The notes below the pieces were generated by a model. It did no database searches and was not told where the DNA came from. It saw nothing but the letters and a program-made list of their open reading frames with translations. The position numbers and the translations under genes are program-made. From contig JAKFXL010000022.1 in assembly GCA_021731365.1 (NCBI GenBank), positions 1 to 64,000 of the forward strand: a stretch of DNA of 64,000 bases. The letters run 5' to 3'. This stretch comes from Gammaproteobacteria bacterium. Lineage in GTDB: Bacteria > Pseudomonadota > Gammaproteobacteria > Tenderiales > Tenderiaceae. Below are positions 22,281 to 40,304 of this stretch, one piece after another. The stretch's first letter is position 1. The number at the start of each line of letters is the position of its first letter.

Positions 22281-24380
22281 ATGAATCGGCATCTACTCAC
22301 TACCTTAATACTTTCGTTATCGCTACCTGCCATGGTGCAGGCAGCCCCTATACAACGGGTTCAAAACCCCATTGCCGGGCAATACATCGTACTGATCAAG
22401 CCCGATCAGGTGCGTGGACCGCAAGACTTCAGCGCTGCTGCACGCTCCCGTCCAAGCGTATCGCAGTTTGCCAACAGCCGCGCCAGGAGCCATGGTGCCC
22501 AGGTAGAGCGGGTGTTTGAAAATGCAGTACGCGGCTTCTCAGCAAAAATGAGCCCCCGTCAGGCCCAGCGGCTGGCTGACGACCCTGCCATTCTGCTGGT
22601 GGAAGAGGATCAAGTCATGAGCATCAACGCCACTCAGGCCAATGCCACATGGGGACTGGATCGTGTCGATCAGGCCAGCCTGCCACTTGATACTAACTAT
22701 ACCTACAACGACACCGCTGCCAACGTCCATGCCTATGTCATTGATACCGGCATCTTCTACAGCCACACCGATTTTGGCGGACGGGCGGTACCCGGTTTCG
22801 ATGCCATCAATGACGGACGTAATGGTAACGACTGTAATGGTCACGGCACCCACGTAGCGGGCACCATCGGTAGCGGCACCTACGGTATTGCCAAAGGTGT
22901 GCAGCTACATGCCGTGCGTGTTCTGAACTGCACCGGCGGAGGCACCACGGCTGGTGTCATTGCCGGAGTCGACTGGGTAGCAGCTAACCATCAGGCCCCT
23001 GCTGTGGCCAACATGAGCCTGGGTGGTGGGGCCTCCAACGCCCTCGATAACGCCGTACGTAATGCCATCGCTCGTGGTGTAACGTTTGCCGTTGCCGCCG
23101 GTAACGCCAACGCCAACGCCTGCAACTCATCACCTGCACGGGTAACACAGGCGATCACCGTCGGGGCCAGCGCTGACACCGATGTACGTGCCACCTTCTC
23201 CAACTTTGGCACTTGCCTCGATCTGTTTGCCCCAGGCGTCAACATCACCTCCACTTGGAATACCAGCAACAGTGCTGTCAACACCATCAGCGGTACCTCC
23301 ATGTCTTCCCCTCACACCGCTGGGGTAGCTGCACTCTATCTGGCCGCCAATCCAGCCAAGACACCTGCCGAAGTTGAGGCTGCATTAAAAGGCAATGCGG
23401 TTGGCAGGGTCACATCAGCAGGCACAGGGTCAACCAACCTGTTGTTGCAGTCACTCTTTGCCGGGGCTGGTACCGGCACAGGTGCCACCGTGCCGCTAAA
23501 CAACGGTGATACCGTGGCAAACATTACCGACACCCTCGGTAACGACCGCCTCTACACCGTCACCGTACCCAGTGGTGCCACCAACCTGAGCGTCAGCAGC
23601 AGCGGTGGAACGGGCAACGCCGACATCTATCTACGCCTCGGCAGCGCACCGCAGCTAGCCACCTTTGACTGTCGTTCAATCGCCACAGGCAATACCGAGA
23701 ACTGCACCGTTGCCACACCTACCGCCGGTGTCTACTACATCATGTTACACGCCACGGCAGACTATGCTTCACTCAGCCTGAACGTGAATTACACCACCAA
23801 CACTGCCAATCAGGCACCTGTGGCAAACTTCACCACCGCCATCACCAACCTGAATGTACAGTTCACCGACACCTCCAATGATACAGACGGCAGCATCACC
23901 GGCTGGTTGTGGAATTTTGGTGATGGTGGCAGCTCCGTACTGCAAAACCCCAGCCGTACCTACGCCGTCAGTGGTAGCTATACCGTCACACTCATTGCTA
24001 CAGACAATAGCGGTGCCAGCAATACACGCAGCGCTATAGTCACCGTCAGCTCCGGGCAGGCGAGCCAACCGTGCACCAGCTGTGAAAGCTACACTGGCAC
24101 ACTCTCTGCCGGTCAGACCGTTTATCAACCCAACGGTGGTTCTTACAGCACTAACGTCAGTGGTGTGCATGAAGCGTGGCTGGAAGGTGCAGCAGGCACC
24201 AACTTCAACCTCACCCTCTACCGTCAATTCAGGCATAACCGCTGGACCGCCGTTGCTACATCCTCAGGCAGCACCTCCTCTGAGCACGTCAGTTACAGTG
24301 GTACCCCAGGCACTTACCGCTGGGGCTTGAATAGCGCGTCAGGCAGCGGTACCTATGACTTCTGGATGATTCGCCCGTAA
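22281..24380 (+). CDS. secreted subtilisin-like serine protease (proteinase K type) with PPC and PKD domains
   Basis: A 699-residue exported protease with a signal peptide (1-21, ending VQA) and an I9 propeptide inhibitor (about 33-115, QYIVLIKPD to VEEDQVMSI). The S8 catalytic domain spans about 125-385: Asp155 in VIDTGI, His188 in NGHGTHVAG, oxyanion Asn275 in AAGN and Ser340 in GTSMSSPH. A PPC beta domain follows (about 410-505), then a PKD domain (about 512-592, with WNFGDGG) and a C-terminal PPC-like domain (600-699) starting after CTSCESYTG. It would be secreted and autoprocessed. The ATG follows GGGGA, and a clear terminator ends the gene. Confidence 0.94.
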   Translation: MNRHLLTTLILSLSLPAMVQAAPIQRVQNPIAGQYIVLIKPDQVRGPQDFSAAARSRPSVSQFANSRARSHGAQVERVFENAVRGFSAKMSPRQAQRLADDPAILLVEEDQVMSINATQANATWGLDRVDQASLPLDTNYTYNDTAANVHAYVIDTGIFYSHTDFGGRAVPGFDAINDGRNGNDCNGHGTHVAGTIGSGTYGIAKGVQLHAVRVLNCTGGGTTAGVIAGVDWVAANHQAPAVANMSLGGGASNALDNAVRNAIARGVTFAVAAGNANANACNSSPARVTQAITVGASADTDVRATFSNFGTCLDLFAPGVNITSTWNTSNSAVNTISGTSMSSPHTAGVAALYLAANPAKTPAEVEAALKGNAVGRVTSAGTGSTNLLLQSLFAGAGTGTGATVPLNNGDTVANITDTLGNDRLYTVTVPSGATNLSVSSSGGTGNADIYLRLGSAPQLATFDCRSIATGNTENCTVATPTAGVYYIMLHATADYASLSLNVNYTTNTANQAPVANFTTAITNLNVQFTDTSNDTDGSITGWLWNFGDGGSSVLQNPSRTYAVSGSYTVTLIATDNSGASNTRSAIVTVSSGQASQPCTSCESYTGTLSAGQTVYQPNGGSYSTNVSGVHEAWLEGAAGTNFNLTLYRQFRHNRWTAVATSSGSTSSEHVSYSGTPGTYRWGLNSASGSGTYDFWMIRP

Positions 24381-28752: not shown

Positions 28753-28780
28753 CCCATTCACATACCCAAGGAGCTTGACC

Positions 28781-29146
28781 ATGTCTAAAAACAGCCTGTT
28801 AATCACCACCACCCTGATTGGGGCACTGCTGGCAGTGCCCGCCTTTGCCGACAAGGACAAAGAGAAGAGCGGTGAAGGTAGTGGCCATACGGCCAACCAC
28901 AAAGAGCATTTTCAACAACGTCAGCAGATGCACATGGATATGATGAAAATGATGGCCGATACCATGACCATCCTCCGGGATTTAAACCATCAGCCCAGCG
29001 CTGATGAGAAAAAGCGGCTCACTGACATGATCAACCGCATGAACGAAATGCTGGCACAACATAAAACCATGGATGAAGGCGCAATGAAATCCATGGATCA
29101 CAAAATGGGCAGCCCTAAAGGGGCCGGACATCACGACAAGAAGTAA
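28781..29146 (+). CDS. Met/His-rich periplasmic protein of unknown function
   Basis: A 121-residue protein with a signal peptide (1-20, ending VPAFA). The mature part is mostly helical and highly charged, rich in Met and His: HMDMMKMMADTMTILRDLNH in the centre, HKMGSPKGAGHHDKK at the end. Such composition occurs in periplasmic copper-binding proteins, but no named family is recognised. The ATG at 28781 is chosen for AAGGAG upstream and for the signal peptide. It may be cotranscribed with acyP (28-nt gap) and is followed by a strong hairpin. Confidence 0.75.
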   Translation: MSKNSLLITTTLIGALLAVPAFADKDKEKSGEGSGHTANHKEHFQQRQQMHMDMMKMMADTMTILRDLNHQPSADEKKRLTDMINRMNEMLAQHKTMDEGAMKSMDHKMGSPKGAGHHDKK

Positions 29147-29153
29147 CCTCAGC

Positions 29154-29181
29154 ACCCCTCAGCCCTGCTGAGGGGTATCTT
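29154..29181 (+). terminator. hairpin terminator after the Met/His-rich gene
   Basis: ACCCCTCAG (29154-29162) pairs perfectly with CTGAGGGGT (29168-29176) around CCCTG. The tail ATCTTCC is only weakly T-rich. Confidence 0.65.
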
Positions 29182-29297: not shown

Positions 29298-32153
29298 ATG
29301 AAAAACATACCCCTACGTGCCCTGGCACTACTCTGCATTATCCAGCTCATCCCATCGGTCCAGGCAGGCATTAGCAACGACCCGAGGCTGAACTGGAAAA
29401 CCCTTACCAGTGAACACTTTACACTTCACTACCATGATGGTGAAGAGCAACTGGCCCAGACAACCATCGCCATTGCCGAGCGGGTTCACACCAGACTTTC
29501 ACCCATTTTTCAATGGGTCCCCCTGGAACCGACCAACATTGTATTGACCGATCAGGTCGATTTTTTCAACGGCTCCGCCACCCCCATCCCCACCAACACC
29601 ATGACGCTGCACGTCACGCCCCCGGAGATATTCACCGGGATTGAGGACCACGCCGGGGCGCTGGAGACACTCATCACCCATGAGTATGTGCACATACTGC
29701 ATCTGGACAAGGCGACCCGTGGACCTCTGCTGGCACGGCAGCTGCTGGGACGGTTTATTCTCCTCTTCCCCGGCGTGTTTCAACCCGCCTGGCTGGTTGA
29801 GGGGTTGGCCACCTACTACGAGACCGACCCGGAACGGGCCATCGGCCGTGGCCAGAGCAGCGCATTTGAGATGCTGATGCGCACCGAATATAGCTGCGGC
29901 ATCAAACCACTGCGACAGGTCAATCAACCCATCGCCAGCTGGCCCAGTGGCAGCGTCCCCTACCTCTACGGTGTCCACTTTTACCAGTTTATCGCCGACC
30001 GCTACGGCGAAGAGAAGATCCAGCAGCTGGTCACACGCTACAGCGGCAACCTGCTGCCCTTCAGCATCAACAACACCAGCAAACGGGTTTTTGGCAAAGA
30101 TATGGCGGCGCTGTGGGACGAGTTCGAGGTTTACCTTCAAGGGCAATATCAACCGCAACTCAATACCCTGCAATCACAAGGCGAACACGCTGGGGTGCGT
30201 ATTGGCGAGCAGGGTTACGTCACCAGCAGCGCCCACCCGCTGCCCGATGGCACACTCTTTTACCTGAGTTTCAACGGCTACAACGCCCCGGCGTTAATGC
30301 GGTTACGACCCGGCTCACAGACACCCGAGCGACTCGCTGATGTGCATCAGGGGGCCCGTTTTGATCTGCACCCCGAGGCCGGCATTGTGGTAGCGCAACC
30401 TGAGGTGAGCCATAACGCCAACCTCTTTTACGACCTCTACCAGATCGACCCGGCCAGTGGCAAACAGCGCCGTTTAACCCATGGTCAGCGTTACCGCGAC
30501 GCCACCTGGTCACCCGATGGCAAAGAGATGGTGGCCATACAGAGCGCCCTGGGCAATCAGGCGCTGCACCGGCTGAATGGCAAAGGTGAACTGATTGAGG
30601 TGCTCTGGAGCGGTGACAATGGCACCACACTCAACAATCCCGACTGGTCTCCCGACGGCACAGCACTGGTGATGTCGGTCTGGCGGCCAGACGGGGGGTG
30701 GAATCTGGAACAGTTCAATATGAACGACCGTAGCTTCACCGCACTGACACAACAGTCAGTGATCGAGGCACAGCCCCGCTACAGCCCTGACGGCCGCAGC
30801 GTGCTCTTCAGCGCTGATCATGGCGGCACCTACAACCTGCGCCGTCTCGACCTTGCCAGCGGCGAGATCACGACCCTGACCCACGTCGCCAGCGGCGCAT
30901 TTGAACCCCATCAAGCCACCACTGATGGTCCGATCTACTACACCGGCTTCAACTGCGATGGCCTGGATATCTACCGTCTTGACCAGCCAGAGTCACTGCC
31001 GACCCCAGTGGCCAATACGGGCACCTCGGGGATCCCGCTACCACCGGCACCCCTGCCAGAGGGGTTGCAGACCCGCGACTACTCCCCCTACGCCCATCTG
31101 CGCCCACGCTGGTGGCTACCACACATCGCCATCGAAACCGGCCGTACCGAGCTGGGGCTGACGACCTCCGCCAGCGACCCACTCAACCGCCACCTCTATC
31201 AACTGAACGCCGCCTATGACTTCAGCAACCGGATGCTGATCGGCTCTGTTGACTATATCTATGACCGTTACTACCCGCTCTTCAAACTGCACGCAGAACG
31301 GTTCAACCAGCTGGAACACAGCAACGACGACACACTGCTGCGTGTGCGTCAGGAGGAGCGTTATCAGGCAGAGGTGGTGCTGCCTTATCTGCAATACAAC
31401 CGCCAGATTTCGCTCCACGCCGCCGCCATTAACGATCAGAGCGCCGACCACTGGCGGGCGCTGAGCACCACCCCCCGCGCCGACCGCACCGACCGCCTGC
31501 TCGGACTGGCCATGGTCTACAACTCAGCACGGCGCTACCCCCTGGCCATCAGCCGCAACAACGGACTCTCTCTGCAACTGGTCGCAGAGAGCAGCGACGC
31601 CTTGAGCGGCTCAGACTACAGTGGCACCACCTACCTGTTCGATAGCCGCGCCTACATCCCCCTGGGTGGCAAACATCTGCTGGCCCTGCGTATTGCGGGC
31701 GGTGCTGGTGACGACCAGTCACGCCCCTTTGTGCTCGGTGGCAGCCGCAGCGCCGGGCAGACCACTGCCCTGCTGGGACCACCCCAGATCGACTCACCCT
31801 TCAACCGGCGTGGCTACGCACTGCGTGGGTATAGCGTCGGCGAGGCGGGGCTGGTTGGCTCGCGCATGGCACTGACATCCGTTGAGTGGCGCTTCCCCAT
31901 CGCCCTGGTCGAGCGTGGTTTTATGGCACCACCCGTGGCGTTGCACCAGCTGCATGGTCTCGCCTTTATTGAGGCAGGCGACGCCTGGTACACCGGGCAG
32001 AAGGAGCGCTTCGTCACCTCCGCCGGGGTAGAGCTGCGCGCCGAGCTGATGCTCTTTTACGGTTTAGGGCTACAGACACGCCTCGGTTACGCCCGCGCCC
32101 TTGATAACGGTGGCGACAACGAACTCTATCTGCAGCTGGGCAGCTCATTCTAA
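29298..32153 (+). CDS. outer-membrane protein with gluzincin peptidase, beta-propeller and beta-barrel regions
   Basis: A 951-residue exported protein with signal peptide 1-23. Residues 30-290 form a peptidase-like domain with HEYVH (128-132) and a downstream Glu at about 168 in VEGLATYYE, the zinc-ligand arrangement of gluzincin MA peptidases. Residues 300-600 carry TolB/WD40-like propeller repeats with WSPDGKEMV, WSPDGTALVM and YSPDGRSVLF. Residues 620-951 are rich in alternating aromatic strands and end in LYLQLGSSF, like an outer-membrane beta-barrel with a terminal Phe; the D15/BamA surface-antigen type seems closest. The N-terminal parts could lie in the periplasm or outside. The Shine-Dalgarno sequence is weak. 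The function is unknown; envelope protein turnover or surface proteolysis is possible. Confidence 0.8.
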   Translation: MKNIPLRALALLCIIQLIPSVQAGISNDPRLNWKTLTSEHFTLHYHDGEEQLAQTTIAIAERVHTRLSPIFQWVPLEPTNIVLTDQVDFFNGSATPIPTNTMTLHVTPPEIFTGIEDHAGALETLITHEYVHILHLDKATRGPLLARQLLGRFILLFPGVFQPAWLVEGLATYYETDPERAIGRGQSSAFEMLMRTEYSCGIKPLRQVNQPIASWPSGSVPYLYGVHFYQFIADRYGEEKIQQLVTRYSGNLLPFSINNTSKRVFGKDMAALWDEFEVYLQGQYQPQLNTLQSQGEHAGVRIGEQGYVTSSAHPLPDGTLFYLSFNGYNAPALMRLRPGSQTPERLADVHQGARFDLHPEAGIVVAQPEVSHNANLFYDLYQIDPASGKQRRLTHGQRYRDATWSPDGKEMVAIQSALGNQALHRLNGKGELIEVLWSGDNGTTLNNPDWSPDGTALVMSVWRPDGGWNLEQFNMNDRSFTALTQQSVIEAQPRYSPDGRSVLFSADHGGTYNLRRLDLASGEITTLTHVASGAFEPHQATTDGPIYYTGFNCDGLDIYRLDQPESLPTPVANTGTSGIPLPPAPLPEGLQTRDYSPYAHLRPRWWLPHIAIETGRTELGLTTSASDPLNRHLYQLNAAYDFSNRMLIGSVDYIYDRYYPLFKLHAERFNQLEHSNDDTLLRVRQEERYQAEVVLPYLQYNRQISLHAAAINDQSADHWRALSTTPRADRTDRLLGLAMVYNSARRYPLAISRNNGLSLQLVAESSDALSGSDYSGTTYLFDSRAYIPLGGKHLLALRIAGGAGDDQSRPFVLGGSRSAGQTTALLGPPQIDSPFNRRGYALRGYSVGEAGLVGSRMALTSVEWRFPIALVERGFMAPPVALHQLHGLAFIEAGDAWYTGQKERFVTSAGVELRAELMLFYGLGLQTRLGYARALDNGGDNELYLQLGSSF

Positions 32154-34004: not shown

Positions 34005-36485
34005 TCACAACTTCACACGTTTCAACCATAGTGCATTGGTAATCACCGACACAGAACTGAAACTCATCGCCGCCGCCGCAATCATGGGGGACAGCAGCAG
34101 ACCAAAAAAGGGGTACAACAGACCAGCGGCAATGGGCACACCGGCAGCGTTATAGATAAAGGCAAAAAAGAGATTCTGGCGAATATTACCCATGGTGGCG
34201 TGTGACAGCCGCCGGGCGCGCACGATGCCACGCAGATCCCCCTTCACCAGCGTCACACCCGCACTCTCCATCGCCACATCGGTACCCGTGCCCATGGCGA
34301 TGCCGACCTGGGCCTGAGCCAGTGCAGGCGCGTCGTTGATGCCGTCACCGGCCATGGCGACGATGCGCCCTTCGGCCTGCAACTGTTTGACCACGGCGGC
34401 CTTCTGATCCGGCAATACCTCTGCATGCACCTGATCGATGTCGAGTTTGGCGGCCACTGCCTCAGCAGTCTTACGACTGTCACCAGTGAGCATGACAATG
34501 CGGATCCCCTCGCCGTGCAGCAGACGGATCGCCTCCGCCGTGGTCTCCTTGATCGGGTCGGCCACACCAATGAGTCCGGCAACACGACCATCGACACCCA
34601 GGAACATCACCGTCTGCCCCTCGCTGCGCAGGGCGTCAGCCTGGCTGGGTAGATCACCGACATCAATGGCAAGATCCTGCATTAGCCTCAAATTACCCAG
34701 GGCAATCTTGCGGCCATCCACCACGCCGGTGACGCCCTTGCCGGTGACGGATTGGAAATCCTCTGCTGCTGCCAACTCTGTCTTACGTTTTTCCGCACCA
34801 CGGACAATGGCGGCGGCCAACGGATGCTCGCTGCCACGCTCGATGCTGGCGGCCAGTCGCACAATTTTGGTTTCATCAAAACCTTCAGCTACTGTCACAC
34901 TCACCAATTCAGGATGGCCCTCGGTGAGCGTGCCGGTTTTATCCACCACCAGGGTATCGACCTTGCGCATCACCTCCAGCGCCTCGGCATTTTTGAACAG
35001 CACACCCATCGTTGCGCCACGGCCTGTACCCACCATAATCGAAACGGGCGTAGCCAAGCCAAGGGCGCAGGGGCAGGCGATTATCAACACCGCCACGGCG
35101 TTAATCACGGCATGGGCAAGCCGTGGTTCCGGCCCCCAGACGCCCCAGATAACCATGGTGATCAAGGCAATGAAGACCACCGCCGGAACAAAATACCCGG
35201 AGACCTGATCCGCCAGTTTCTGGATCGGCGCACGCGAACGCTGCGCTTGCGCCACCATCTGGACGATCTGCGCCAACAACGTATCAGCACCGACCTTTTC
35301 CGCCACCATCACCAGACCACCCGTGCCGTTGATCGTGGCACCGATCACCTGGGTCCCGCTGCTCTTCTCCACCGGTACCGGTTCGCCGGTGACCATTGAC
35401 TCATCCACATGGCTGACGCCATCAACCACACTGCCATCCACTGGCACCTTCTCGCCAGGACGGATGCGCAACTTATCGCCGGGCTGGACATGCTCCAGCG
35501 GAATATCCTCTTCATGACCATCGTCACGCACGATGCGTGCTGTTTTGGGTGCAAGCCCCAACAGCAGCTTGATTGCCGTATTGGTCTGACTGCGGGCGCG
35601 CAACTCCAGCACCTGCCCCAGCAATACCAGTGTGGTGATGACGGCGGCAGCCTCGAAATAGACCGGTACTACACCCATCGCATTAAATACCGAGCGCGGA
35701 AAAATATCCGGCATAAGCGCCGCTACCATGCTGTAACCCCACGCCACCCCCACACCCAGTCCGATGAGCGTGAACATGTTGAGATTACGTGTCACCAACG
35801 ACTGCCAGCCACGGACAAAAAAGGGCCAACCGCCCCACAACACTACTGGCGTGGCGAGCAACATCTCCAACAGCTGACGTGTGCCCGGCTGGACAACTGC
35901 TGCGACACTCTCGGGCCAGAACTCTGCACCCATGGCGCTGATGAATACCGGAATGGAGAGCACCGCGCTGATCCAGAAGCGGCGTGTCATATCACGTAGC
36001 TCGGCGTTATCCTCCCCGGCCACCGTCAGGGTGCGCGGCTCTAAGGCCATGCCACACTTGGGGCAACTGCCTGGGTGATCCTGAACGATCTCGGGATGCA
36101 TGGGGCAGGTATATTCAGTTTTTGTGATGGTGTCTGGGATGGTATTAGGCACGCCCATCAGCTCCAGTGCCATGCCACATTTTGGGCAGCTGCCCGGCCC
36201 TGGCTGCTGAATCTCAGGGTGCATCGGACAAGTATAAAGTGGTGTTGCCGCACTGGCATTGACACTGGCATTGACACTGGCCTTGGCACCGGCGGTCTGA
36301 CTTAACAACTCTCTATGATGATGGCCGCCTTCGACCGGGGAATGAATATATTGTAGCGGTGCTGCATTAAACCTGGTCAGACAGCCAGGGCCACAGAAAT
36401 GGTATCGCTGCCCTACATAACCGGCATAGTGGAGGGCATCTGCCGCCACCTCCATGCCACATACGGGATCTTTTTCAGTTGCCAT
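34005..36485 (-). CDS. copper/silver-translocating P-type ATPase with YHS and two HMBD modules
   Basis: An 826-residue P1B ATPase pumping Cu(I)/Ag(I) out of the cytoplasm. The N-terminus has a YHS domain ([24 protein letters not shown]; 6-35) and two tandem heavy-metal-binding modules YTCPMHPEI...CPKCGMALE (84-108 and 125-149). It lacks the usual CxxC ferredoxin-like HMA domains. The pump core has CPC in [29 protein letters not shown] and GDGINDAPA. The linker near 66-80 is Ala/Ser/Val/Asn-rich, encoded by a 12-bp microrepeat around 36256-36284. It is part of the minus-strand copper operon. Confidence 0.94.
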
Positions 36486-36613
36486 CTTGTTGCCTCGCTT
36501 GCTAGCGTTTACAAATAAGATCAGCCCTTTTTAATCGATTCCACTCCGTTATAGCAGCACCACCCCTTGATGGTGCCCTCTTCAAAACATCAAATAGCGC
36601 CGGACTCAGCCCC

Positions 36614-36754
36614 TCATCTGCTTTTATTAACAAACAGATACTTCACCAGCCCGGCCACTACCAGCAACACAATCAACCAAAAAAGGATGCCAAACCCCCA
36701 GTGTCCAGCCCCCATCTCCATTCCCATCGACCAACTGCCGCTATCGTGCATCAT
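36614..36754 (-). CDS. 46-residue Met/Trp-rich single-span membrane protein
   Basis: A small gene between the DUF2231 gene and the P-type ATPase. It reads MMHDSGSWSMGMEMGAGHWG, then a hydrophobic span FGILFWLIVLLVVAGLVKYL and a basic end (VNKSR). GGAGG lies at a good distance upstream, supporting translation; the second ATG at 36751 is an alternative start. Short membrane proteins of this sort with Met/Gly/His/Trp-rich N-termini recur in copper-resistance loci, where they may bind copper or modulate the pump. No function is assigned. Confidence 0.75.
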   Translation of the reverse strand: MMHDSGSWSMGMEMGAGHWGFGILFWLIVLLVVAGLVKYLFVNKSR

Positions 36755-36807
36755 TTAACACCTCCGCATCGTTGAGCTAACTGTTAAGCGACGTCGAGCA
36801 TAACACC

Positions 36808-37440
36808 TCAATGCTGATGATCATGTCCATCGTCGTTCATCGTGGCATCCATATCGTCCGTCCCCATGCCCAGGTCGTCATGATGGGTACTGTCCAGCGA
36901 CTCGCCATGGTGGCCATCCATCACCTCAGCGCCACTGCCGCCGTGGTGATCCGCGCCATCGCCGTGGGAATGGCTATGCCCTTCTCCTTCAGACTTCGGT
37001 AACGACATCACCCCCAGGCCGTAACGATAGACCACTTCGCCACCACGCCAGGCGGTTGCTGACAACACCGCACCCGCGATCACCATACCAACAACAAACA
37101 GGGTACCCAGTTTTTTGCCCGTCCAGGTCGAGAATACCGACCAGGCTGCCAGCAGCAAAAAGAGTATCAGCGTGGCGATTGCCCAGTTGCGGTGAAGGGT
37201 CATGGCCTGGTGAGAGGGGGTGTCGTGGGCAACGGTATTGTAGGCATACCACCCCGTCAGGCCGGTGATGATGGCAAAACCGGCACCAAACCATAAGGAC
37301 CAGCGCGCTACAATCTGCCACTGCTCCTGCAGCGGTGATTTTACAAAGAGTGTGACCACGGTCAGGCCGGCAGCCAGGGAGAGTAGCGCCACAGTAAAGT
37401 GGACAAAGATGGGGTGCCAGTTGGGGATGATTTCGAACAT
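36808..37440 (-). CDS. DUF2231 membrane protein with histidine-rich tail
   Basis: A 210-residue inner-membrane protein with four predicted spans (about 11-31, 48-66, 85-106, 113-132). It starts with the DUF2231-type WHPIFVHFTVALLSLA. The C-terminal roughly 70 residues are soluble and packed with His/Asp/Met (GHSHSHGDGADHHGGSG, TDDMDATMNDDGHDHQH), an evident metal-binding tail. DUF2231 proteins are of unknown function and are often found near copper and redox genes. It is located inside the copper operon between copB and the small membrane protein. Confidence 0.85.
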   Translation of the reverse strand: MFEIIPNWHPIFVHFTVALLSLAAGLTVVTLFVKSPLQEQWQIVARWSLWFGAGFAIITGLTGWYAYNTVAHDTPSHQAMTLHRNWAIATLILFLLLAAWSVFSTWTGKKLGTLFVVGMVIAGAVLSATAWRGGEVVYRYGLGVMSLPKSEGEGHSHSHGDGADHHGGSGAEVMDGHHGESLDSTHHDDLGMGTDDMDATMNDDGHDHQH

Positions 37441-37545
37441 TTAGTGCTCCTTAAAATAGTGTTTAGTTAAATGCTGTTGAGTCCATTCATCTTCAGCAAA
37501 CTTGCCGCGCCATTGTTACACCTATACAACTGTAAAAAATAGTGG

Positions 37546-38538
37546 TCAGAACCAGAAACGGAGACCGGCTACCACACGAGTATCATCTGTCTGCCCGCCA
37601 GCTGCGCGGACATAATCGGCTGTATCACCATAGGTACCCGCCCACTCAATGCCTATGTAAGGGGCAAACTCCCGTCTGACCTCATAGCGTAGACGCAAAC
37701 CTGCCGTCACGCTTGAAAGACCACTGCCCAGACCCCGTTCAGGATCATCCTTACCATAAAGTGTTGTCTCAACACGCGGTTGCAGAATCAGCTTCTGGGT
37801 AAACAGCAGCTCATACTCGGCACTCAACCCGACGGCACTGCGACCACCATCACCCAGATAAGCGCTGGCCCCCACCTCAAACCAGTAGGGGGCCAGCCCC
37901 TGCACACCCATGGCGAGCCAGGATTGATTCTCCCCTTCACCACTGTCGTAACGCAAACCGAGTTCACTATTCCAATAAGTATCAATGGCATGGCTCCAGA
38001 GCAGTTGGGTGCTGGACTCCATCAATGAGTCATTGGCAATCTCACCCTCTGATTTCAATACGATGCGATTGTAATCACTACCATACATGGCTTTAAGGTC
38101 ATATAACCGCCAGCTGCCCTCTTTTCCACGCACCGCCTCCAGACGATCAACCATTAACGTCGCCATAGTGTATTGATCCGCCAGTGTTAACCGCGGTGAC
38201 GCCCTAAACTCAAGTCCATCGGAATAGGCGTGGGGATCACGGGCATCCGCCGGGGCCGAACCCCCTTGCATCTTCATGCCGCCCATACCGCCCGCACCAT
38301 GTTGCATCGTACCACCCGCAGCATCGTCCCCCATGGAGTGACCCATAGCAGAGTGGTCCATGGCCGACTCTGACTCCATGTCCATGCCGGAAAAGTCCAT
38401 CTCCGCCGCATCAGCGGTGGGTGTCGACATGTTGCCTGTGTGCCCCGAATGGTCCATGGCCATATCGCCCGCTGCCCATAGGGGGGTGATGTTGGTGAGC
38501 AGTAACGCCGCCATCAATGATTTTTTTCTGTTTTTCAT
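37546..38538 (-). CDS. copB: copper resistance outer-membrane protein CopB (PcoB)
   Basis: A 330-residue outer-membrane beta-barrel protein with a signal peptide, then a Met/His/Gly-rich stretch (MAMDHSGHTGNMS, MDHSAMGHSMGDD, MQHGAGGMGGMKMQGG). The CopB domain follows (GLEFRASPRLTLADQYTMAT onwards) and ends in Phe (GLRFWF), typical of barrel proteins. It probably binds or moves periplasmic copper with CopA. The start is the ATG at 38538, which begins a good signal peptide; ATG 38559 and a TTG overlapping the copA stop are possible. It directly follows copA. Confidence 0.93.
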   Translation of the reverse strand: MKNRKKSLMAALLLTNITPLWAAGDMAMDHSGHTGNMSTPTADAAEMDFSGMDMESESAMDHSAMGHSMGDDAAGGTMQHGAGGMGGMKMQGGSAPADARDPHAYSDGLEFRASPRLTLADQYTMATLMVDRLEAVRGKEGSWRLYDLKAMYGSDYNRIVLKSEGEIANDSLMESSTQLLWSHAIDTYWNSELGLRYDSGEGENQSWLAMGVQGLAPYWFEVGASAYLGDGGRSAVGLSAEYELLFTQKLILQPRVETTLYGKDDPERGLGSGLSSVTAGLRLRYEVRREFAPYIGIEWAGTYGDTADYVRAAGGQTDDTRVVAGLRFWF

Positions 38539-38576
38539 ACTATATATAGTCCTATGCATCACAACCCTCGCCTCAC

Positions 38577-40304
38577 TCAAGAGACCACCACTTCACGGAA
38601 CATGCCCGTATCCATGTGGTACAGCAGATGGCAGTGCCAGGCCCAGTGGCCCAGCGCATCGGCGGTGACAAGAAAGCTGATCCGTTGCGCTGGCTGCACA
38701 CTGATGGTGTGGCGACGTGAAAGTACCTCACCCTCCGGACTCTCCAGCTCACTCCACATGCCGTGCAGATGCATGGGGTGAGTCATCATGGTGTCGTTGT
38801 GCAAAATGACCCGCAGCCGCTCGTTGTGACGAAAGTGTATAGGTTTGGATTTGCCAAACTCCACCCCATCAAACGACCAGGTATAACGCTCCATATTGCC
38901 GGTCAGATGCAGCTCCATGTCACGCCCCGGCTCGCGCAGATCTGTAGGGCCATGAATGCTACGCAAATCTGCATAGGTCAATACTTTGCGGCCGTTATTA
39001 CGCAGACCAATACCGGGATCATCGAGATTGGTGCGTGGTGTATCAACACGCATATCAACACTGGGGCCATACTCTGTGCTGGCGTGGCGCACTTTGACCG
39101 CCGATGCTGCCATCGCACCCCCTCCCGTCGCGCCCATACTCCCCATCATGTCTGTCATGGTCAACATCTCGGGTCTGTCCAGCGCCGGCACAGGGGCCGC
39201 TAACCCGTCCCGGATTGCCAGCGTACCTCTGGCGTATCCGGTACGGTCCATCGACTGTGCAAAAATGGTGTAGGCATCGTCACTGGGGGTCACAATCACA
39301 TCATAGGTTTCACCCGGACCAAAGCGGAACTCATCCACCGTGACCGGCTCAACCGCCAGGCCATCGGCTCCGACCACGGTCATCTTCAATCCGGGTATAC
39401 GCACATCAAAGAAGCTTTGGGTTCCTCCATTAATAAAACGCAAACGTACCCGCTCACCAGGGCTGAACATCCCCATCCAGTTACCCCGTGGCGTGGTACC
39501 GTTCATCAAGTAGGTATACCCGTACGCGGAGATGTCCGCCAGATCCGTAGGACTCATCCGCATCTGGTTCCACATCCGCCGCTTGGAGATGGCGGAGGCC
39601 AACCCTTCGGTACTGACATCACGAAAAAAATCGACCACCGTCGGCTGATTGAAGTTGTAATAGTCGGACTGCTTTTTCAGATTGTTAAAGACGTTCATTG
39701 GGTCGTCATCTGTCCAGTCCGACAGCAGCACAACGTGATCACGGTCAACCTGCGGACCGGCCTCTTCAGCAGGGTCGATAATAATCGCCCCGTACATGCC
39801 CGTCTGCTCCTGAAAGCCGGAGTGGGAGTGGTACCAGTAACTACCCGACTGCTGCACTTTAAAGCGATAGACAAACGTTGTGCCCGGCGCAATGCCATCA
39901 AAACTGATGCCCGGCACACCGTCCATCTCAAATGGCAGGATGATGCCGTGCCAATGGATAGAGGTCGGCACACTCATACGGTTAGTCACACGCAGGGTGA
40001 TCGTATCACCCTCACGCCAGCGTAACGTTGGTGCAGGAATCGACCCATTAATCGTCGTTGCCATGCGTGGCGCACCTGTAAAATTGGCGGGCGACTCTGC
40101 CACCGTCAGCTCAAACTCCGTGCCACTTAATACAGGGGCTGAACCGGTTGTTGTCATACCCGCCACCTCGGTGGCTGACTGCGCCCAAGTTGATTGGCTT
40201 GCTGGCGCCAACCCTAACAATACCCCGCCTGCCATCAACCCTTGTACAAAACGGCGACGTGGCAAGTTAGCCAGTGGTGGGTTCGGTGGAAAATTGTGTT
40301 TCAT
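38577..40304 (-). CDS. copA: periplasmic multicopper oxidase CopA (PcoA), Tat-exported
   Basis: A 575-residue multicopper oxidase that oxidises Cu(I) to less toxic Cu(II) in the periplasm. The Tat signal is RRRFVQGLMAGG. All copper-site motifs are present: IHWHGIILPF, WYHSHSGFQEQTGMYG, HPMHLHGMW and HWAWHCHLLYHMDTGM, which provide the type 1, 2 and 3 ligands. A Met-rich segment (MTMTDMMGSMG) lies in the middle. The ATG follows AGGAGAGGAG. It is copB's partner (38-nt gap). Confidence 0.96.
   Translation of the reverse strand: MKHNFPPNPPLANLPRRRFVQGLMAGGVLLGLAPASQSTWAQSATEVAGMTTTGSAPVLSGTEFELTVAESPANFTGAPRMATTINGSIPAPTLRWREGDTITLRVTNRMSVPTSIHWHGIILPFEMDGVPGISFDGIAPGTTFVYRFKVQQSGSYWYHSHSGFQEQTGMYGAIIIDPAEEAGPQVDRDHVVLLSDWTDDDPMNVFNNLKKQSDYYNFNQPTVVDFFRDVSTEGLASAISKRRMWNQMRMSPTDLADISAYGYTYLMNGTTPRGNWMGMFSPGERVRLRFINGGTQSFFDVRIPGLKMTVVGADGLAVEPVTVDEFRFGPGETYDVIVTPSDDAYTIFAQSMDRTGYARGTLAIRDGLAAPVPALDRPEMLTMTDMMGSMGATGGGAMAASAVKVRHASTEYGPSVDMRVDTPRTNLDDPGIGLRNNGRKVLTYADLRSIHGPTDLREPGRDMELHLTGNMERYTWSFDGVEFGKSKPIHFRHNERLRVILHNDTMMTHPMHLHGMWSELESPEGEVLSRRHTISVQPAQRISFLVTADALGHWAWHCHLLYHMDTGMFREVVVS

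Follow-up and report, generated by a model that had tools for sequence, protein, structure and literature searches.

Locus and Domain Architecture

The window considered here, i.e., the whole stretch of 64,000 nucleotides, carries on its forward strand an intact open reading frame (ORF) that starts with an ATG at position 29298, has a stop codon ending at 32153, and encodes a protein of 951 amino acids. According to the ORF and its Pfam matches, this protein comprises a putative zincin domain, a TolB-like β-propeller, and an Omp85 barrel, and the initial annotation, which had described a peptidase, a propeller, and a barrel in one 951-residue chain, was right on both the domain content and its order. 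As read from the translation, the chain begins with a probable Sec-type signal peptide (about residues 1–23; 29298–29366, + strand), predicted to be cut between MKNIPLRALALLCIIQLIPSVQA and G and devoid of a lipobox.

Directly upstream, at 28769–29146 (+), lies a gene for a small secreted Met/His-rich protein, which has no significant match to a Pfam family and is not conserved next to the genes of the relatives; a hairpin, identified by eye near 29154–29174, separates it from the 951-residue ORF. Translations of other genes of the window read as a nearby heavy-metal P-type ATPase and CopB-like outer-membrane protein (34005–38580, − strand), which suggests a copper-resistance cluster, and as a secreted subtilisin-like protease with a PKD-like domain (22281–24380, +).

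The N-Terminal Domain

Residues 26–292 (29373–30173, +; boundaries approximate) form a gluzincin-like peptidase domain, as indicated by the Peptidase_MA_2 matches found in relatives. The HEYVH motif that had been noticed earlier is located at residues 128–132 (29679–29693, +), where it would supply two zinc ligands and the catalytic Glu, and the downstream Glu is E168 (29799–29801, +), the putative third ligand, embedded in EGLATYYE. For each of the four residues of this putative site, namely H128, E129, H132, and E168, 41 of the 42 aligned sequences of the family agree with the window protein; with an overall identity to the query of only 20–47% in this set, the pattern is conserved beyond chance. 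The loss of zinc ligands in orthologues, named in the initial annotation as a ground for rejecting a protease, is confined to one copy in each of two genomes that have two copies, and does not refute that reading.

The match of the window protein to Peptidase_MA_2 (PF13485) has a score of 15.4 bits (E 0.016), below the cut-off of 32.4, and remains under the cut-off when the N-terminal domain is searched alone (E 0.0017). At a threshold of E ≤ 0.01, the same model recognizes the N-terminal domain in 10 of the 39 members, with a best value of 8.7e-10, and it reaches 34.5 bits, above the curated cut-off, in a distant relative (L022), a protein of 1018 residues encoded on a Latescibacterota contig. 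The PF13485 search returned no match in the genome of the window, yet the control genomes likewise gave none, and the N-terminal family profile had no significant match among solved structures. AlphaFold models, built from an alignment of the window protein and L022 only, had a pLDDT of 42 for the N-terminal domain and of 36 for the whole protein, values too low for either model to be of use. On the strength of its sequence relationships, the N-terminal domain is probably a zinc peptidase.

The Propeller and the Barrel

The TolB-like propeller spans approximately residues 293–596 (30174–31085, +), a range that also takes in the short linker leading to the barrel. It is recognized by Pfam PD40 in the window protein (E 2e-11), and the family profile of this region matches TolB structures with E 3.1e-28; the SPDG-type repeats reported before are found at residues 405–408, 451–454, and 496–499.

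The C-terminal domain (residues 597–951; 31086–32150, +) matches the Omp85 family PF01103 above its cut-off of 24, with 25.8 bits (E 9.6e-6) for the window protein and 29.1 bits (E 9.5e-7) for the barrel alone, and PF01103 matches 17 of 40 family members. The sequence LRGY at residues 842–845 (31821–31832, +) corresponds to the Omp85 loop-6 motif (V/I)RG(F/Y): RGY fits the motif, the first position being Leu rather than V/I, and the stretch aligns with VRGF of TamA barrels. Within the aligned set, G844 is invariant (42/42) and Y845 is present in 40 of 42 members. In hhalign comparisons, the barrel profile and BamA barrels are collinear across 278 columns, at a pairwise E of 2e-5, and TamA aligns with the last 90 columns, whereas no match was obtained with the CopB-like protein of the window, used as a negative control and, by our reading, an outer-membrane protein outside Omp85. 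Against solved structures, the profile retrieved TamA only, at E 0.13.

In the barrel region, and likewise in BamA, hydrophobicity alternates more than in column-shuffled controls, which is not the case for the other two domains; the strand count on which this depends shows no difference from shuffles at a low threshold and differs at higher thresholds, chosen afterwards, so that it supports the closed 16-strand barrel of Omp85 proteins weakly. The barrel-like C-terminus ending in Phe is as described initially: Phe is the last residue of the window protein, and of the 39 aligned barrels complete at the C-terminus, 30 end in it as well. No Pfam match to a POTRA domain was found in the window protein, in which the short linker alone joins propeller and barrel; this is compatible with Omp85 membership, since the main text of PMC4104836 describes the WD40-Omp85 and noNterm subfamilies as lacking POTRA. 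These comparisons place the predicted barrel in the Omp85 superfamily (BamA/TamA type) instead of among generic barrels.

Distribution, Co-inheritance, and Paralogues

At E ≤ 1e-20, and with the query genome included in both counts, the family has matches in 19 of the 398 genomes from the phylum and in 38 of the 369 from the class (about 10%). Profile searches of 274 class genomes located the N-terminal domain in 30 and the barrel in 31. All 30 genomes with the N-terminal domain also have the barrel, and the two sit in one open frame of about 910–1040 amino acids, with the exception of G446, G449, and G492, in which the frame or the contig is interrupted, and of G656, which has an upstream extension. 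The only genome with a barrel alone, G515, gives a weak match in a frame of 425 residues. The three domains are thus inherited as one unit. Two relatives of 1266 and 1310 amino acids were considered as larger fusions and, by inspection, look like upstream extensions of the reading frame.

A search for a conserved operon across 42 loci found no neighbor common to more than four of them; the family is patchy in occurrence and stands alone, with no conserved neighbors. No relatives were found on viral contigs, plasmids gave no match, and phages gave a match to TolB only.

Pairs of intact and altered copies are confined to two genomes. Genome G446 encodes one protein with HEYVH (L139) and a second in which motif and Glu are both changed (L084), while genome G411 encodes one with HETLH (L141) and another with HETMS that retains the Glu (L140). 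With one intact and one altered site each, these pairs resemble those formed by an enzyme and a pseudo-enzyme.

Proposed Function and Alternative Explanations

The view taken in the initial annotation, of a protease held in the outer membrane by its own barrel, is supported in part, by the domains and the conserved zinc ligands, and, judged from sequence, it is still the best reading, with substrate docking by the propeller a putative role. We lean moderately toward an exported zinc metallopeptidase of the outer membrane that faces the periplasm and is carried on its own POTRA-less Omp85 barrel. In such a scheme, the protein would be exported by Sec, and BAM would insert the C-terminal domain as an Omp85-type barrel; the gluzincin domain and the propeller would then lie on the periplasmic side, in the place taken by the POTRA domains of other Omp85 proteins. 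The propeller may order or gate access to the zinc site, which in turn might cleave stalled or unfolded envelope proteins, or peptides, close to the outer membrane. This reading is consistent with the Omp85 and TolB matches, the BamA alignment, the Peptidase_MA_2 matches in relatives, the conserved HExxH...E, the fixed architecture, and the patchy occurrence of the gene on its own. Against it are the score of the query under the Peptidase_MA_2 cut-off, the lack of a significant solved structure for the N-terminal profile, the unusable AlphaFold models, the absence of any substrate, partner, or operon pointing to proteolysis, and the altered-site copies of two genomes.

Two alternatives concern what the barrel does. 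Display or secretion of peptidase and propeller at the cell surface, in the manner of an autotransporter, was the original idea for PlpD, and it draws on the outward movement of proteins by some Omp85/TpsB relatives and on the type V order of N-terminal passenger and C-terminal barrel, both described in the main text of PMC4104836. We regard it as quite unlikely because the enzyme domain of PlpD, the nearest tested analogue, was shown to remain in the periplasm (PMC11116518), from which we infer by analogy the periplasmic topology preferred here, and because a propeller of some 300 residues, once folded, would make a poor passenger. Unlikely too, if to a lesser degree, is a protein devoted mainly to outer-membrane assembly, a fused analogue of BamA and BamB as Heinz and Lithgow proposed in 2014 (main text of PMC4104836), with a secondary zincin; the loop-6 motif of the barrel and the persistence of copies with no intact HExxH speak for it, but nearly all members retain HExxH and the Glu, the genome itself encodes separate BamA-like and TamA-like proteins, and the family is restricted to the tenth of class genomes noted above.

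The remaining alternative concerns the zinc site, which might hydrolyze a non-protein substrate of the envelope or belong to a noncatalytic binding module. HExxH by itself is no proof of peptidase activity, and it is lost in some paralogues; given that, at the level of the family, there is a match to the Peptidase MA superfamily, we hold this to be improbable.

If the metallopeptidase reading preferred here is true, the outer membrane might have a new proteolytic route, and the zinc-peptidase site would be the second type of enzyme on an Omp85 scaffold, after PlpD. More tentatively, and with rather less confidence, the proteins may make up a widespread family of zinc proteases that anchor themselves in the outer membrane, are gated by a propeller, and are built on an Omp85 barrel with no POTRA; in some species, inactive paralogues would serve as their partners or regulators.

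Comparison with Known Systems

The initial annotation recognized no characterized member. No tested member was found, but the propeller-Omp85 architecture had been named in 2014 by Heinz and Lithgow, who defined ten Omp85/TpsB subfamilies, WD40-Omp85 among them, and likened the latter to a BamA-BamB fusion (main text of PMC4104836). A propeller N-terminal to an Omp85 barrel defines that uncharacterized subfamily, and the window protein has this order, with a TolB-like propeller and no POTRA; the two families are likely the same. In that case, the idea of a BamA-BamB fusion would need revision. The main text of PMC4104836 mentions no zincin domain for WD40-Omp85, and the word "peptidase" is absent from it, so that, relative to this text, the zincin domain is a real addition to the propeller-Omp85 fusions already known. 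A literature search, with most subscription literature outside its scope, found no paper joining "Omp85" with "peptidase MA".

The PlpD paper names WD40-like Omp85 proteins among the poorly characterized ones, and its authors point out that the Omp85 proteins studied earlier all assembled or moved other proteins (PMC11116518). PlpD and the other patatin-Omp85 proteins share with the window protein an N-terminal enzyme domain fused to an Omp85 barrel; they differ in that PlpD has a patatin lipase domain and POTRA, with neither propeller nor zinc site.

The "Metallo" Omp85 subfamily (PF00149) likewise has a metal-dependent domain N-terminal to the barrel, although we take PF00149 to comprise calcineurin-like metallophosphoesterases and not peptidases of the HExxH kind, and so to differ from the domain described here. 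The term applied to this subfamily in section 10 of PMC4104836 is metalloproteases. With Peptidase_MA_2, the window protein has in common the HExxH and downstream Glu, and the likeness extends to L022, which exceeds the cut-off that the window protein itself does not reach.

Finally, BepA, YcaL, and LoiP are zinc peptidases involved in outer-membrane quality control (PMC13067283). They belong to a different peptidase family (M48) and have neither propeller nor barrel, but, being zinc peptidases of the outer membrane, they offer a functional analogy, proposed only as such, for the protein encoded in this window.
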